From assembly GCA_018436095.1 (NCBI GenBank), contig JAHDMJ010000018.1, forward strand, positions 322,434-386,433: a stretch of 64,000 bases of DNA. Direction: 5' to 3'. This stretch comes from Clostridia bacterium (GTDB lineage: Bacteria; Bacillota; Peptococcia; DRI-13; UBA5745). Below are positions 1,566 through 26,925 of the stretch, piece by piece. The position numbers and the translations under genes are program-made. The notes under the pieces are model-generated. The model was not told where the DNA came from and did not search any database. It was given only the letters and a program-made list of their open reading frames with translations. Within the stretch, counting starts at the first letter, position 1. Each line of letters begins with the position of its first letter.

Positions 1566-2927
1566 TTAGACTTTTACCACCGGGAAGCGGTGGGGTATCC
1601 GGATATTGGCCCTGTCATAAATGGCGGCTCCCCGCCGGCAAGCCTCTTCTAAAATGGCGTCCTCATCGAGGGTCAGAATTTTTCTGTCCCGCATCAGCCA
1701 TTTGCCGTCGCACATGGTGGATTCCACATTTTCCGAACGCATAGCCGTGACTAAGGAGGCAATGGGATCATTAACGGGCATCATGGAAGGGCCGTAAGGA
1801 TTGATAATAATCAGATCCGCCTTCTTGCCGGCCTCCAGAGAGCCGTAGAGATCCTCGTCCAGCAGGGCCCGGGCCCCGTTTTTCGTCACCATCCGTAAAA
1901 TATCCTCAGAGGGCACTACCGTGGAGTCCAGCCGCCAGCCTTTATGAATCAATGAAGTAAGCCACATTTCATCAATGATGTTCATGCGGTTGCTGGAGGA
2001 GGCGCCGTCTGTACCGATGGTGACACAGATGCCTTCGTCCAGCATCCGGGGGATTTTGGCAAAGCCCAAAACCCGCATGGCGGAAGCCGGATTGTGGCTG
2101 ACTTTGACGTCCCGCTTTTTGAATAAGGCCACTTCTTCGTTGGTCAGCCAAACGCTGTGGACGGCCAGCAGGTTTTTATCGAGAACCCCCAGTTTTTCCA
2201 GGTGGGTCACCGTAGGTTCGCCGTATTTTTCCATAGTATAATCGATTTCGCTTTTGGCCTCGGCTACGTGCATATGGACGCCTACGCCATAGCGGTCCGC
2301 CAATTCCTTGGTGCGGACAATTAAATCGTCGGTATTGTTGAAAATAGTACGCAGGCCAAACCAGACTTGGACCCGGCCCCCGGCGGTATTATGGAAACGC
2401 TGAAAATCCTCTAATTGCTGCTCCAGTTCTTCGCCGGCGGTTTTTTGCCAGATAGCCGGCAGTCCTGTGCCGCAGTCCATGACGGACTTGGCCAGCTTTG
2501 CCCGCAGGCCGGCTTCTGCCACAGCCCGGGCCATACCTGATACGAACTGGCCTCCCGGCTCGGCAAAGGAGGTGACGCCGGAGCGGATCAGTTCAAGGCA
2601 GCACATCAGGGTAGAAACATAGGAATCCTCTTCCGTCATGTTGCTTTCGTAGGGCCACATCCGCTTATGGAGCCAGGTGATGAAATCCACGTCGTCGCCT
2701 ACGCCCCGGGAGATCTGCTGAGAAGTATGGACGTGGGTATTGACAAAGCCCGGCAGCACATACTTGCCTTTTAAATCCACAATCTCCGCCTGGGGAGATA
2801 TCAACTCAGGATCAATAGCCCCTACGGCGATAATGCGGTCCTTCTCAATGAGTACGCCGCCGCCATCGTAGACCCTTTCGTCCTTGCCCATAGTCACAAT
2901 ATAGCCATTTTTCAAATAAGTCTGCAT
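1566..2927 (-). CDS. amidohydrolase of the MTA/SAH deaminase - chlorohydrolase (TrzN/AtzA) group
   Basis: A 453-residue metal-dependent hydrolase, normal length for the cytosine-deaminase-like amidohydrolases. It shows the N-terminal beta strand region, the NTHVHTS metal site (His65 and His67), a third histidine in HMHVAEAKSE near residue 218, a fourth in AVHSVWL near 257 and the aspartate in GTDGASSSN near 305. These proteins deaminate purine-like or triazine rings; members include 5-methylthioadenosine/S-adenosylhomocysteine deaminase and guanine deaminase-like enzymes, and the substrate cannot be fixed from sequence. Being upstream of adenine deaminase in the same direction argues for a purine or purine-nucleoside derivative. 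The start has an AAGGAGGG site 6-7 bases upstream. Transcription probably starts from the divergent region shared with the MerR gene. Confidence 0.85.
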   Translation of the reverse strand: MQTYLKNGYIVTMGKDERVYDGGGVLIEKDRIIAVGAIDPELISPQAEIVDLKGKYVLPGFVNTHVHTSQQISRGVGDDVDFITWLHKRMWPYESNMTEEDSYVSTLMCCLELIRSGVTSFAEPGGQFVSGMARAVAEAGLRAKLAKSVMDCGTGLPAIWQKTAGEELEQQLEDFQRFHNTAGGRVQVWFGLRTIFNNTDDLIVRTKELADRYGVGVHMHVAEAKSEIDYTMEKYGEPTVTHLEKLGVLDKNLLAVHSVWLTNEEVALFKKRDVKVSHNPASAMRVLGFAKIPRMLDEGICVTIGTDGASSSNRMNIIDEMWLTSLIHKGWRLDSTVVPSEDILRMVTKNGARALLDEDLYGSLEAGKKADLIIINPYGPSMMPVNDPIASLVTAMRSENVESTMCDGKWLMRDRKILTLDEDAILEEACRRGAAIYDRANIRIPHRFPVVKV

Positions 2928-2952
2928 GACAACCCTCCTTATCTATGTAGAA

Positions 2953-2981
2953 TTGCTGACCGATAAAAATTATGCTATGAT
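2953..2981 (+). promoter_or_regulatory. predicted promoter of the MerR-family gene
   Basis: TTGCTG (2953-2958), a 17-base gap and TATGAT (2976-2981) preceded by TGc, which makes an extended -10. Transcription would start near 2988, immediately before the perfect palindrome at 2990-3010, so a protein bound there could block it (autorepression). Inference from sequence only. Confidence 0.55.
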
Positions 2982-2982
2982 C

Positions 2983-3013
2983 AGTTTACAACCTATAATA
3001 ATTATAGGTTCAA
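2983..3013 (-). promoter_or_regulatory. MerR-type operator and promoter for the amidohydrolase-adenine deaminase operon
   Basis: A perfect inverted repeat occupies 2990-3010: AACCTATAAT, one central A, then its exact reverse complement. On the minus strand TTGAAC (3013-3008) and TAAACT (2988-2983) stand 19 bases apart, with the palindrome filling the spacer. An overlong 19-base spacer carrying a dyad is the hallmark of promoters that MerR proteins activate by DNA distortion. The adjacent gene encodes such a protein. Box matches are moderate, the dyad is unambiguous. Confidence 0.65.
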
Positions 3014-3056
3014 GCCCTGTTTTATTTTTATTTTGTATTTATGGAGGGAAGGCAGC

Positions 3057-3839
3057 GTGAAAGAATACCTGACAATCGGTGAGATGGCGGAGATTTTTCA
3101 TATGGATGTGCAGCTTTTACGCCACTATGACGCCAAGGGGCTGCTGGTGCCCTCCCGCCGCAATGCCGCCAATGGCCGGCGTTTTTACTATTTCGACCAG
3201 GTTTACCCTTTGGCCACCATCCGCTACCTGCGGAAGCTGGGCTATTCTTTAGATAAAATCAATAAATTTTTATATGCCGACGACGTCAATAAGAATGTGG
3301 ATACTTTGGTTGAGCAGACCGTTATTTTGCGGCGGCGCTGTGAAGAGTTGATGGATACCATCAACATTATTCAAAAAAAGCTGGATTTCATTGAGGCAGA
3401 GAGCCAGTTCACCCAAAAGGACAGCTTCCGGATTAAGACCTATCCCCAGCGGCAGTTTATCCATATAGGCGACGAGCTTAATTTGTTTACCCATGAGTTG
3501 TTCTACTTCTATCCTACGGTAGGCTTTTATCAAGGGGAGAAAAAATGGTTTGGCGCTTATTTATTTGATGAGCTCTTTGATGGAGAAGCTGCCGGGCCGG
3601 CCCTGTCCCAAGGAGCGGAGCAGGCCGTCATCCCCGCTGTCATCCCCGGCGGCCGCTATTTATGCGGCTACCATTACGGGCCTTACCATAAGATTCAGGA
3701 AAGCATTGACAAGCTGTATGCCGCCGGCCGGGAGTACAAGCTGGAGGAATGTGTGGTGACCCTGAACATTATCGATCAGTTTGTAGAGGGCCATCCCGCC
3801 AATTACATTACAGCTTTAGAGGTTTTGATTAAAGAATAA
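3057..3839 (+). CDS. MerR-family regulator with GyrI/BmrR-like ligand-binding domain
   Basis: Residues 1-70 form a MerR winged helix (YLTIGEMAEIFHMDVQLLRHYDAKGLL, then NGRRFYYFDQVYPLATIRYL), followed by a dimerising helix (about 75-115) and a C-terminal GyrI-like effector domain that ends with GGRYLCGYHYGPYHKI and ANYITALEVLIKE. This is the layout of BmrR-type drug or metabolite sensors; there is no cysteine metal site of the MerR metal group. GTG at 3057 is chosen because GGAGGGAAGG lies just before it; an upstream in-frame TTG at 3033 would put the ribosome site inside the gene. Divergent from the amidohydrolase operon with a MerR-style operator in between, so it likely switches that operon in response to a small ligand, perhaps a purine-like compound (inference). 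Confidence 0.85.
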   Translation: MKEYLTIGEMAEIFHMDVQLLRHYDAKGLLVPSRRNAANGRRFYYFDQVYPLATIRYLRKLGYSLDKINKFLYADDVNKNVDTLVEQTVILRRRCEELMDTINIIQKKLDFIEAESQFTQKDSFRIKTYPQRQFIHIGDELNLFTHELFYFYPTVGFYQGEKKWFGAYLFDELFDGEAAGPALSQGAEQAVIPAVIPGGRYLCGYHYGPYHKIQESIDKLYAAGREYKLEECVVTLNIIDQFVEGHPANYITALEVLIKE

Positions 3840-23813: not shown

Positions 23814-25055
23814 TTAAACTCTGGAGCCGGGCATTACGCCGAAATCACCCTGGTAAATCTCCGGCACGGCCATATCCAGCAGCAGGCTGGCTCTAAAGAT
23901 GCTGCCGGCTCCAAAACGCCGCCGCAGCTGATCCGTGACGGCCTCCAGCTTTTCTTCCTGCCTGCGCCGGTCCTCACCGCCCCATAAGCACTGCTGGAGG
24001 GGCGTATCATCGTGGATCAGGCTGCCGGCCTGCAGGCTTAAAGCCCGGATGGGCGTCTGCCAATCATGATGTTTGCGCAGAAGGGCCAGGGCCTCATCTA
24101 CAAGGAGCTGGGCGGAGCGGCCTGCCGGCTGCAAGGGGCACTGGCAGGAGCGAAAAGAGAGATCAGGCCTGCGGATAATTAAAGAGAGGGATTGGGCCAA
24201 AAAGCCGCTTTCACGAAGACGGCGGGCTACCCGCTGGGCAAGAAAATGGAGGATTTGCAAAGCCTCTTTCTCATTGCGCAAATCCCGGGTGCAAGTGATG
24301 CCGTGGCCTACGCTTTTGGCTTCGGCCATGGTCTCCAAAGAAAGCACGGGGCTCTCATCCCGGCCATTGGCATAGTCCCAGAGCTTGCGTCCATTAATGC
24401 CGAAGAGCTTTTCCAGCATGACGGGAGAAGCTTGGGCCAGCTGGCCGATATTATATATGCCGTAACGGTCCAAAGTAGTTTTGGTGGAGCGTCCCACCAT
24501 CATCATGTCATTGACCGGCAAGGGCCAAAGCAGAGAGCGGTAATTTTCCCTGGTGATAACCGTGGTGCCGTCAGGCTTCTTAAGATCGCTGCCCATCTTG
24601 GCAAAGATCTTATTAAAACTGACGCCTACGGATATGGTGAGGTCACGGTCTTTCACCAGCTGCCGCAAACGGTCGGCAATATCCCTGCCGCTGCCGAAGA
24701 GGTGGCTGCTGCCGGTGACGTCTAACCAGCATTCGTCGATGCCAAAGGGCTCCACCTGATCGGTAAACCTCCTGTAAAGCTCCTGGACTTTCTTGGAAAG
24801 CTCCGTATACTGGGGAAAATCCGGCGGCACCGTCACAAGGCCGGGGCACTTTTGTTGGGCCTGCCAAAGGACTTCTCCGGTTTTAACGCCATATTTCTTG
24901 GCCTCCTCGCTTTTGGCCAAGACGATACCGTGGCGGTGGGCGGGATTGCCGCAAACCGCCAGAGGAAGGCCTTTGAGCTCCGGATTTTGCCGGCAAGCCG
25001 CCGTAGCATAAAAATTATTCAGATCGCAATGTAAAATGACTCTATCTGTCTCCAT
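23814..25055 (-). CDS. dinB: DNA polymerase IV (Y-family)
   Basis: 413 residues. Error-prone lesion-bypass polymerase. N-terminal ILHCDLNNFYATA with the first catalytic aspartate, the SEEAKKYGVKTG finger region, GIDECWLDVTG with the second acidic pair, then SVGVSFNKIFAKMGSDLKKP, a helix-hairpin-helix thumb and the C-terminal little-finger domain. No clear QLxLF clamp motif at the end. The ATG at 25055 begins the METDRV stretch typical of the family; the frame is open further upstream only through the promoter region. Ribosome site AGAGG is weak. Its promoter and a candidate operator are shared with the divergent XRE/ImmA pair. Confidence 0.93.
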   Translation of the reverse strand: METDRVILHCDLNNFYATAACRQNPELKGLPLAVCGNPAHRHGIVLAKSEEAKKYGVKTGEVLWQAQQKCPGLVTVPPDFPQYTELSKKVQELYRRFTDQVEPFGIDECWLDVTGSSHLFGSGRDIADRLRQLVKDRDLTISVGVSFNKIFAKMGSDLKKPDGTTVITRENYRSLLWPLPVNDMMMVGRSTKTTLDRYGIYNIGQLAQASPVMLEKLFGINGRKLWDYANGRDESPVLSLETMAEAKSVGHGITCTRDLRNEKEALQILHFLAQRVARRLRESGFLAQSLSLIIRRPDLSFRSCQCPLQPAGRSAQLLVDEALALLRKHHDWQTPIRALSLQAGSLIHDDTPLQQCLWGGEDRRRQEEKLEAVTDQLRRRFGAGSIFRASLLLDMAVPEIYQGDFGVMPGSRV

Positions 25056-25088
25056 CAGGGATCGCCTCTGAATGTATAATGGAATATA

Positions 25089-25117
25089 TTGACGGAACGT
25101 AAATTCCACTATATAAT
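25089..25117 (+). promoter_or_regulatory. promoter of the XRE-ImmA pair with internal candidate operator
   Basis: TTGACG (25089-25094), a 17-base gap and TATAAT (25112-25117). The spacer contains GGAACGTAAATTCC (25094-25107), that is GGAA-N6-TTCC, the same pattern as at 25180-25193 beside the dinB promoter. A repressor bound here would block its own transcription. Confidence 0.65.
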
Positions 25118-25143
25118 AAAAAGCAGAAATATCGTTCGCCTTT

Positions 25144-25171
25144 ATCATACTTAATTTACAGGAGAAGTCAA
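25144..25171 (-). promoter_or_regulatory. predicted dinB promoter
   Basis: On the minus strand TTGACT (25171-25166), a 16-base gap and TATGAT (25149-25144). The leader to the dinB ATG is about 85 bases and overlaps the divergent promoter. Confidence 0.6.
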
Positions 25172-25177
25172 TACTTT

Positions 25178-25195
25178 CCGGAAAAATATTTCCGG
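25178..25195. promoter_or_regulatory. candidate operator of the XRE regulator next to the dinB promoter
   Basis: CCGGAAA, four bases AATA, then TTTCCGG: a perfect 7-4-7 dyad. Its core is GGAA-N6-TTCC as in the XRE promoter spacer. It lies 6 bases upstream of the dinB -35 box. Confidence 0.55.
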
Positions 25196-25236
25196 TTCCC
25201 TGAAGAGTTTGTTCAGGTTGAAGGAGGGAGACAGGG

Positions 25237-25707
25237 ATGAGTTTTGGAGAGAAATTGCGGTCTTTAAGGCAGGAAGCCGGCATGTCCCAAGCGGAGCTGG
25301 CCCGGCGTTTGGGAGTGACGGAGCGTTCCATTCATAATTATGAGGCTAATGCCAGATACCCCAAAGGCCAGGGCGTATTGCGGGGAATTGCCGCCACTTT
25401 TGGCGTCACCGCCGATTATCTTGTGGATGATACGATTCCCTTGCCGGCGGATAAGCAGCAGAAAAAGGATAAGACCTCCCGCCGTGAGGAGGTCAGCGAT
25501 TTTCTGTCGGCTGCCGGTGAAGCTTACGGCAGCAAAGGCCGCAAAGAGGCTGCCCGGCTATTGGAGGAGGCGGGGATGATGTTTACCGGCGGCGAGCTGT
25601 CCGAAGAGGATAAAGATGCTTTCTTCCAATCCATTACCCAGGCTTATTTTGCCGCTAAAAATAAGGCCCGGGAGAAGTTCGGCCAGAAAGAGAAGAAGTC
25701 CTTTTGA
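25237..25707 (+). CDS. XRE-family regulator paired with an ImmA/IrrE protease
   Basis: 156 residues. Residues 4-62 are a Cro/CI helix-turn-helix (SQAELARRLGVTERSIHNYE), followed by a charged linker and a helical tail (about 85-150). The organisation resembles ImmR of ICEBs1 and DdrO of Deinococcus, repressors that are inactivated when an ImmA/IrrE-type protease cuts their C-terminal part. AAGGAGGGAGACAGGG precedes the ATG. The stop overlaps the start of the protease gene by 4 bases. Divergent from dinB, so dinB is a plausible target (inference from the shared GGAA-N6-TTCC sites). Confidence 0.85.
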   Translation: MSFGEKLRSLRQEAGMSQAELARRLGVTERSIHNYEANARYPKGQGVLRGIAATFGVTADYLVDDTIPLPADKQQKKDKTSRREEVSDFLSAAGEAYGSKGRKEAARLLEEAGMMFTGGELSEEDKDAFFQSITQAYFAAKNKAREKFGQKEKKSF

Positions 25708-26207
25708 TTGCCAGGATCATCAAAGACACCGAAAAATTGTTAAAAGAGCTAGGGAGCCGGGATCCTAAAGATCTAGCGGCTTATTTTGATGTTTCTTTAA
25801 GGGAAGATGCCTTGGGCAGCTTAAAGGCCTACATTTTTTTTCAATCCCGGGTGGCCGTGATTTGTTTAAATTCCTCTTTGCCCGAGGAGCTGCGGCCCAC
25901 CGTTATTTGCCACGAAATGGGCCATTATCTTTACCACCAGAAACTGGCCAAAGGCCATACCTTCCGAGAGAAGCAACTCTTTTCTCCTCAGTACAGCAGC
26001 GAGTACGAAGCCAACTTATTTGCCGCTGAGTTTTTATTGGAAGACGAAGAAGTCTGGGAAAAACTGAAAGCCGGCGGCGATTTGTTTCGGGTAGCTTCAG
26101 AACTGGGCGTACCGCCGGAGTTGCTGGATTTTAAATTAAAGATGATGCATTACAAAGGATACGAGGTGCATAGCTGTCTGCAGGCTGCGGGAAATTTTTT
26201 GAAGTGA
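25704..26207 (+). CDS. ImmA/IrrE-family metallopeptidase
   Basis: 167 residues with the zinc motif in VICHEMGHYLYHQ (HEMGH, about residues 71-75) and the downstream glutamate in SSEYEANLFAAEFLLE (about 97-112), the two diagnostic blocks of the family. Such proteins cleave partner XRE repressors. Start is TTG at 25704, overlapping the upstream stop by 4 bases, which fits translational coupling; the ribosome site (GAGAAGAAG) is weak. There is no phage or integrative-element gene nearby, so this is not an obvious prophage immunity module. Confidence 0.87.
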   Translation: MIARIIKDTEKLLKELGSRDPKDLAAYFDVSLREDALGSLKAYIFFQSRVAVICLNSSLPEELRPTVICHEMGHYLYHQKLAKGHTFREKQLFSPQYSSEYEANLFAAEFLLEDEEVWEKLKAGGDLFRVASELGVPPELLDFKLKMMHYKGYEVHSCLQAAGNFLK

Positions 26208-26325: not shown

Positions 26326-26344
26326 TCGTATATTCAATTAAAAA

Positions 26345-26408
26345 TGTAAAAAGTATTTGACATATTTGGCGAGAAGTGTTATGCTCAAAATGTAAAAAGT
26401 ATTTTACA
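26345..26408 (+). promoter_or_regulatory. promoter flanked by twin operators for the small XRE pair
   Basis: TTGACA (26357-26362), a 17-base gap and TATGCT (26380-26385). Two dyads TGTAAAA-AGTA-TTTNACA lie at 26345-26362 (covering the -35; one mismatch) and 26391-26408 (perfect, at the predicted start of transcription). The pattern predicts negative autoregulation by the XRE protein encoded at 26731. Confidence 0.7.
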
Positions 26409-26431
26409 TAATTTTGTTTAGGGGGATTTGT

Positions 26432-26728
26432 ATGGATTGGTTATTGATTGGGCTAAGCGGCGTGTTTATCCTTTTGACAGTATTGATTATAGTGTTTTTA
26501 GTTTCACTGTCAAAGCAAGGGGATGAAAGATATGAGCATATAAAAACAAAAGCTATAGTGATTTCCTTTTATGCAACAGTTGGCGTTTTGATTGGAAATC
26601 TCGGCCGGGCTATTTTCAATATTGGCAACCAAACAAATGGGTTTATATCTAATCTAAGTTTACTAATAGTTGTAGCCGTTATATTTTTAGCTTCTTTAGT
26701 CTGGCAAAAAAGGAAATATGGTGGTTAA
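26432..26728 (+). CDS. small membrane protein upstream of an XRE regulator
   Basis: 98 residues with three hydrophobic segments (about 3-23, 40-60 and 73-91) and a basic C-terminus (WQKRKYGG). Small membrane proteins of this kind are often encoded just before a 60-70 residue XRE regulator in Firmicutes; their function is not known. ATG at 26432 follows AGGGGG by 7 bases; the frame is open a few codons further but without a ribosome site. AT-rich relative to its neighbours. Confidence 0.7.
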   Translation: MDWLLIGLSGVFILLTVLIIVFLVSLSKQGDERYEHIKTKAIVISFYATVGVLIGNLGRAIFNIGNQTNGFISNLSLLIVVAVIFLASLVWQKRKYGG

Positions 26729-26730
26729 TA

Positions 26731-26925
26731 ATGAAAAACCATATTCGGGATTTACGGAAAGAAAAGAAGCTATCCCAAGATGAGTTAGCAAAACTCTGTA
26801 ATGTTACCCGGCAAACAATTAACGCCATAGAGAACAATAAATATGACCCGACTTTAATATTGGCGTTTAGGTTAGCCTATCTATTGCAAACAACGGTAGA
26901 TGAATTATTTGAATTTGAACAGTAA
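26731..26925 (+). CDS. short XRE-family regulator
   Basis: 64 residues that consist only of a Cro/CI-type helix-turn-helix: RDLRKEKKLSQDELAKLCNV, TRQTINAIENNKYDPTL and a C-terminal TTVDELFEFEQ, the pattern of the YgzD-like regulators. It starts 2 bases after the stop of the membrane protein gene and has GGTGG upstream. It probably binds the two TGTAAAA-N4-TTTTACA sites at the operon promoter. No terminator is evident after it. Confidence 0.88.
   Translation: MKNHIRDLRKEKKLSQDELAKLCNVTRQTINAIENNKYDPTLILAFRLAYLLQTTVDELFEFEQ

Follow-up and report, generated by a model that had tools for sequence, protein, structure and literature searches.

The closest described systems to the locus presented here are pairs of a metallopeptidase and a repressor. 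IrrE (PprI) of Deinococcus cleaves the repressor DdrO, a reaction stimulated by single-stranded DNA (ssDNA), and ssDNA likewise activates the cleavage of CapH by CapP, a pair known from CBASS islands (PMC10904395). For ICEBs1 of Bacillus subtilis, the proteolytic inactivation of ImmR requires ImmA (PMC2701414 and PMC8072749).

In the window, i.e. the whole 64-kb stretch of DNA analysed here, adjacent genes code for an M78 peptidase with an HExxH motif and for a Cro/C1 helix-turn-helix (HTH) repressor, and a dinB gene is located divergently to both. With IrrE/DdrO this locus has in common the M78 metallopeptidase and its fold, a Cro/C1 repressor, repair-gene targets and a presumed independence from LexA. 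However, the protease of Deinococcus is larger and its repressor has a wide regulon, whereas the peptidase of our locus is short, shares a transcript with the repressor and has essentially one polymerase gene as predicted target. A short protease encoded together with the repressor is also the arrangement of ImmA/ImmR, and ImmR of ICEBs1 is by sequence the nearest solved relative of the HTH domain found here. Yet ImmR governs the excision of a mobile element, whereas the subfamily described here is predicted to control dinB and is seldom found in plasmid or phage records (among 72,556 plasmid records 2 had an ImmA relative, among 50,697 phage records 3). CapP/CapH, ssDNA-activated according to PMC10904395, provides the best fold match for the peptidase and a close match for the HTH, but its target is an immune operon, and we recognised no immune genes at our locus. 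Finally, the LexA/SOS system of Firmicutes, with uvrB and bypass polymerases, also combines damage-inducible repair genes with a repressor using GAA-N6-TTC-like sites. It differs by another repressor fold and by RecA-assisted self-cleavage, whereas here a separate protease is present and the operators need not resemble SOS boxes. The dinB-xre-immA unit is probably a local switch of the known IrrE/DdrO, ImmA/ImmR and CapP/CapH kind, dedicated to a bypass polymerase and having conserved face-to-face promoters. Our literature search, covering open-access papers, yielded none on such a unit, and dinB, DinP and UmuC are absent from the main text of a 2009 survey (PMC2701414).

Organization of the locus

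The dinB gene on the minus strand and xre-immA on the plus strand are separated by an intergenic gap of 181 bp (25056-25236). Pfam upheld the identities that the initial annotation had given to DinB, the XRE protein and the M78 metallopeptidase. The features are:

23814..25055, minus strand: dinB, Y-family lesion-bypass DNA polymerase IV, 413 aa (Pfam IMS 1e-42, IMS_C 2e-19)
25089..25117, plus strand: predicted xre-immA promoter TTGACG-N17-TATAAT (both hexamers unchanged in the congener G004)
25094..25107, plus strand: operator O1 GGAACGTAAATTCC, within the 17-bp spacer of the xre promoter (14/14 bases same in G004)
25125..25138, minus strand: operator O2 CGAACGATATTTCT, in the gap separating the facing -10 boxes (13/14 bases same in G004)
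25144..25171, minus strand: predicted dinB promoter TTGACT-N16-TATGAT, -35 box TTGACT at 25166-25171 (both hexamers unchanged in G004)
25180..25193, plus strand: operator O3 GGAAAAATATTTCC, immediately 5' of the dinB -35 box (12/14 bases same in G004)
25237..25707, plus strand: xre, Cro/C1-type repressor with two long C-terminal helices, 156 aa (Pfam HTH_3 4e-12)
25704..26207, plus strand: immA-like M78 metallopeptidase, TTG start, 167 aa (Pfam Peptidase_M78 5e-16)

The start of dinB at 25055 was chosen by comparison with relatives, from the conservation of the protein and the arrangement of the genes; a longer open reading frame reaching 25331 is mere read-through across the intergenic region. 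The TTG start of immA overlaps the stop of xre, and the two genes share four bases. The xre and dinB promoters face each other, with 26 bp separating their -10 boxes, and O2 covers the start sites that these boxes predict for both genes. The outer bases of O3 vary (in G004 the site reads GGAAAGATATTTCT), with the GAA-N6-TTC core kept. Outside the promoter hexamers and O1-O3, 94 of 116 bases of the gap are the same in G004, and conservation of the operators is only marginally above this background (p 0.054). A weaker fourth inverted repeat, TGAA-N7-TTCA, was noticed by eye at 25201-25215.

Residues H70, E71, H74 and E100 of the ImmA-type peptidase are invariant in 46 of 46 relatives. Its structural model (pLDDT 87) is nearest to CapP among solved folds (Z 12.4, rmsd 3.2, 138 residues aligned), followed by IrrE (Z 11.9, 4.4, 150) and PprI-ssDNA (Z 11.4, 4.3, 152). 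In the XRE model (pLDDT 86) the C-terminal helices span residues 71-116 and 123-148; the GG at positions 118-119 between them is invariant in 52 of 52 sequences. The XRE HTH is close to the CapH-type HTH (Z 12.0). A match to DdrO extended over the HTH only (residues 1-68), a comparison by which the C-terminal helices were barely probed.

Operator sequences

The initial annotation had proposed GGAA-N6-TTCC as the operator shared by both promoters. Its two copies exist as described, one (25094-25107) inside the spacer of the xre promoter and the other (25180-25193) beside the dinB -35 box, within the perfect dyad CCGGAAA-N4-TTTCCGG (25178-25195). The pattern as such is ordinary: it occurs 3 times in the 64-kb window, with 1.82 expected and at least three reached in 28 of 100 shuffles, and 108 times in the 3.7-Mb genome, where the reversed control gives 93. 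These counts near control rule it out as a genome-wide signal. A better description of the core is GAA-N6-TTC, which includes O2 as a third, previously overlooked copy. The 181-bp gap has three copies of this core (at 25095, 25126 and 25181), a number that 3 in 20,000 dinucleotide shuffles attained; this figure is no blind test because the core was chosen after seeing the earlier pattern and the relatives. No other 181-bp stretch of the window holds such a three-copy cluster. A spacer control is more independent than this shuffle figure. Over 28 non-redundant gaps, a spacer of six nucleotides gave 26 sites and each other spacer from 3 to 11 gave 1 to 7; L013, five near-identical Faecalibacterium-type loci and L006, which is the same as L057 and was dropped ahead of every gap count, had been left out. 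Repeated 8-mers were as frequent as observed in at most 5 of 100 shuffles for 19 of 33 gaps of the relatives (L006 and L013 left out). For the gap of the window this was the case in 85 of 100 shuffles, which is not significant.

Conservation among relatives

When 60 relatives were searched with XRE, 48 had some match, mostly to the HTH alone. Nine loci with long XRE matches were inspected, the window's own included; dinB is located beside xre in six of these and not in L009, L011 and L012. In a broader scan, an ImmA alignment was run against the genomes of 84,980 species; it confirmed 139 relatives, of which the best 80 were kept. Eleven of the 80 were set aside (five without an xre hit, six with less than 1500 bp upstream), leaving 69 usable loci with xre present and at least 1500 bp upstream. 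A divergent dinB is found in 29 of these 69 (from the best 80 of 139 ImmA relatives) and not in the other 40, a fraction that does not apply to all M78 pairs because the 80 loci were chosen by similarity to the ImmA of the window. The 29 include L132 and L134, though their polymerases are only 23-27% identical.

A promoter pair was recognisable in 27 of 34 gaps. In 24 of the 34 it is arranged face to face with the -10 boxes 23 to 60 bp apart, and in most face-to-face cases an operator is seen by eye within the gap separating these boxes. In the non-redundant set, excluding the five near-identical Faecalibacterium-type loci, 19 of 29 gaps have face-to-face promoters; 300 shuffled sets gave 0.01 on average and never more than 1.

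Several other layouts were observed. A distant Y-family polymerase of a different subfamily is located 3' of immA on the same strand in L084 (4549-5946), L131 (4568-5977) and L108 (5718-6938), in the last case about 1.2 kb further downstream; therefore, the pairing of xre-immA with a bypass polymerase arose in more than one layout. In L062, a divergent ORF of 185 aa (2690-3244) begins like DinB and then jumps, with xre-immA and the operators retained; apparently this is a dinB that has lost its middle by an internal deletion. Many loci without dinB instead have a protein of approximately 170-205 aa divergent from xre (L058, L061, L074, L076, L090, L093, L095, L099, L101, L115, L120). Four of these were scanned against Pfam: L058 and L076 are weakly like DUF1492, and L074 and L115 gave no match. 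Perhaps this protein is another target of the same switch.

Operators follow the repressor

By eye, the operators fall into types according to lineage: GAAC-N4-TTTC types, ACGAA-N6-TTCGT, CGGAAGTT, GAAGTT direct repeats and TGCA types. The recognition region of XRE pairs with the operator, for instance RTIQNYE with ACGAA-N6-TTCGT and SERSLYTYE with CGGAAGTT. Across 26 loci (without L006, L013, L132, L134 and the five near-identical Faecalibacterium-type loci) the 6-mer similarity of the gaps correlated with XRE at 0.58, with ImmA at 0.50, with the recognition helix at 0.36 and, lowest, with DinB at 0.19. The correlation with DinB falls to zero once ImmA and the recognition helix are fixed. That of the recognition helix is weak after fixing DinB and ImmA (r 0.145, 34 of 2000 in a partial Mantel test), and single recognition residues are not proven as determinants of the operator. 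Since the operators track XRE and ImmA and hardly DinB, they follow the repressor operon.

Genome-wide, these patterns are not enriched in the relatives. GAAGTT-N3/4-GAAGTT occurs at 18 places versus 33 for the reversed motif; half of them (9 of 18) belong to xre loci. ACGAA-N6-TTCGT occurs at 34 sites versus 79 in the control; 18 of the 34 were retrieved and at least 13 are at dinB or xre loci, four of the 13 having been placed by matching their letters with the L118 and L126 gaps. Sites with an operator pattern are often at the dinB/xre locus of the respective genome, namely 3 of 3 in G007 and 2 of 3 in G008. In G077 the dinB gene is apart from the xre locus (L088), yet two operator sites are present in its promoter region. 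In G073, a cluster of three ACGAA-N6-TTCGT sites is also located outside the dinB-xre locus, at C8:13865-14227 (L213, L225), near genes that by eye code for a Crp-like regulator and a phage-terminase-like protein.

LexA and its sites

The imperfect LexA-like box GAACGTAAATTC reported by the initial annotation turned out to be O1 itself, and GAAC-N4-GTTY is indeed absent from the gap of the window. LexA-type boxes were present in 2 of 34 gaps, one of them in G025, and absent from 32. O1, O2 and O3 all lack the GTTC half and resemble SOS boxes in one half. In a LexA family search of two genomes which have the locus, none was found in G058, and G025 gave only a weak fragment, GntR-like by eye and not credible. 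GAAC-N4-GTTC occurs 26 times in the window's genome (33 in the control) and 13 times in G025 (17 in the control), there with two sites in the dinB-xre gap; with counts below control in both genomes, this motif was ruled out as an SOS regulon. As judged by eye, the lexA promoters of the canonical genomes G009 and G038 contain CGAAC-N4-GTTY boxes; those of the window's genome (G000), G004, G007 and G008 do not.

The LexA of the window's genome (G000:C34:335589-336230; L037, L038) reaches 109.2 bits, where the cut-off is 110.95. In the alignment, Ser is replaced by Thr and Lys by Arg at the positions which we take to be catalytic, the Lys change being common to G004, and the Ala-Gly that presumably is the cleavage site is not aligned. 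The DNA-binding domain, a winged helix, is intact, and its SSSTVH block is the same in 6 of 6 sequences. Judged from the changed residues, this LexA may be unable to cut itself. The loss of self-cleavage by a LexA would be interesting in its own right.

Extent of the switch and the uvrB site

The enrichment near repair genes that the initial annotation envisaged did not emerge: the raw GGAA-N6-TTCC fails, and a tightened motif, SGAAMRWWWWTTCY, adds only uvrB as a conserved intergenic match. The tightened motif is not enriched (19 rows in G000 versus 31 in the control, 13 in G004 versus 29). Among the sites in G000, of which 17 of 18 were inspected, three recur at the corresponding position of G004, namely those of dinB-xre and uvrB and one within a coding gene. 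No operator shared by many repair genes, as in IrrE/DdrO, was found among these 17, the conserved intergenic sites being only dinB-xre and uvrB. Since uvrB is the sole additional conserved intergenic match, the switch is narrow and not a regulon. In the window's genome, no operator was seen by eye at the promoters of recA and lexA.

The uvrB site, GGAACGAAATTTCC (in G004 GGAACAAAATTTCC), is located directly 3' of a TTGCAT-N17-TATAAT-like promoter, approximately 200 bp upstream of uvrB. At G000:C38:68364-68377 (L178) and G004:C62:7701-7714 (L169) it was kept while the surrounding sequence, including the stretch up to the gene, diverged. The XRE switch may also act on uvrB in the window's genome, but the reader of this site could be XRE or LexA, because uvrBA of C. 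difficile is under LexA control (PMC4234289). As a general member of the switch uvrB was rejected: the site occurred only in G000 and G004 among 13 promoters inspected, and no full-length uvrB was found in G007. G062 (Papillibacter) has a LexA-type box at uvrB instead and GAAGTT-type sites in the dinB-xre gap; therefore, two regulators plausibly coexist there.

A proposed repressor-protease switch for dinB and its alternatives

We consider it likely that the locus is a self-contained, LexA-independent switch, in which XRE acts as repressor of dinB and of its own gene until it is removed by the ImmA-type protease after damage. XRE would bind O1, O2 and O3 and so repress both xre-immA and dinB, with O2 able to block both promoters at once; as a prediction from the comparison of related loci, this step is well supported. 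Upon DNA damage, probably perceived as ssDNA, the metallopeptidase would become activated and cleave XRE, by analogy with the known pairs. Then dinB and xre-immA would be derepressed together, and freshly made XRE would reset the switch. LexA would be unnecessary for all of these steps. The proposal of the initial annotation, operators common to dinB and the XRE/ImmA pair in place of a LexA box, is well backed by the conserved locus, by the face-to-face promoters, by operators that track XRE and by the occurrence of the locus where LexA was not found. Against the XRE/ImmA switch we count the weak signal of the recognition helix, the null result of the 8-mer test for the window, the p of 0.054 for operator conservation in G004, the 40 of 69 loci without divergent dinB, the intact DNA-binding domain of LexA and the half-SOS-like sites.

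It is unlikely that instead LexA is the main repressor here, O1-O3 and the uvrB site being weak SOS boxes and the XRE/ImmA pair only a neighbour or tuning itself. The winged helix of the window's LexA, intact with the SSSTVH block in 6 of 6, would allow for this, and uvrB, which has a similar site in G000 and G004, is a LexA target in C. difficile, where GAACnnnnnTTC was also employed in LexA searches (PMC4234289). However, the GTTC half is missing from all of O1-O3, operators in most relatives are unlike SOS boxes and the same arrangement occurs where LexA was not found. Moreover, the catalytic residues of the window's own LexA are changed, and no such box was seen by eye at the lexA promoters of G000, G004, G007 and G008, whereas the canonical ones have it. 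All dinB loci target a lesion-bypass polymerase, and the nearest folds of the peptidase, CapP and IrrE/PprI, act in DNA damage. Both points speak against a protease that answers another signal, such as metal or oxidative stress, and against a removal of XRE without cleavage; XRE would then still repress dinB and itself, but dinB would not be damage-inducible via the pair. We regard this as quite unlikely, even though a role as toxin-antitoxin-like or oxidative-stress modules has also been considered for M78/XRE pairs (PMC10538038 and PMC2701414) and the C-terminus of XRE is without an assigned relative. That dinB is located beside an XRE/ImmA pair by chance, with AT-rich dyads devoid of meaning, is highly improbable. 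Such a coincidence would agree with the unenriched GGAA-N6-TTCC in window and genome and with the non-significant 8-mer repeats of the window, but not with three cores in 181 bp (3 of 20,000 shuffles), the preference for the N6 spacer over 28 gaps, face-to-face promoters in 24 of 34 gaps and divergent dinB in 29 of 69 loci.

Beyond the single locus, we tentatively suggest that in a broad, Clostridia-like set of bacteria control of the bypass polymerase passed from LexA to a repressor-protease switch of its own, whose promoters face each other and whose private operators change fast. Where LexA is missing or has ceased to cut itself, as may be the case for that of the window's genome, the XRE/ImmA switch might be the remaining damage control of mutagenic repair and have started to capture genes once under SOS control, such as uvrB. 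If so, a protease-repressor pair instead of LexA would govern induced mutagenesis in many Clostridia of the gut and the environment, and work on SOS- or antibiotic-induced mutation in these bacteria would address the wrong regulator. It would also show a polymerase leaving one regulon for another and, as repressors and operators co-vary, offer a compact system in which rules of recognition can be tested.

As a minor observation made by eye, the window contains at 26341-26925, 3' of immA and downstream of a repeated TGTAAAAAGTATTT, genes for a small membrane protein and a short XRE protein, which look like a second, separate autoregulated pair.
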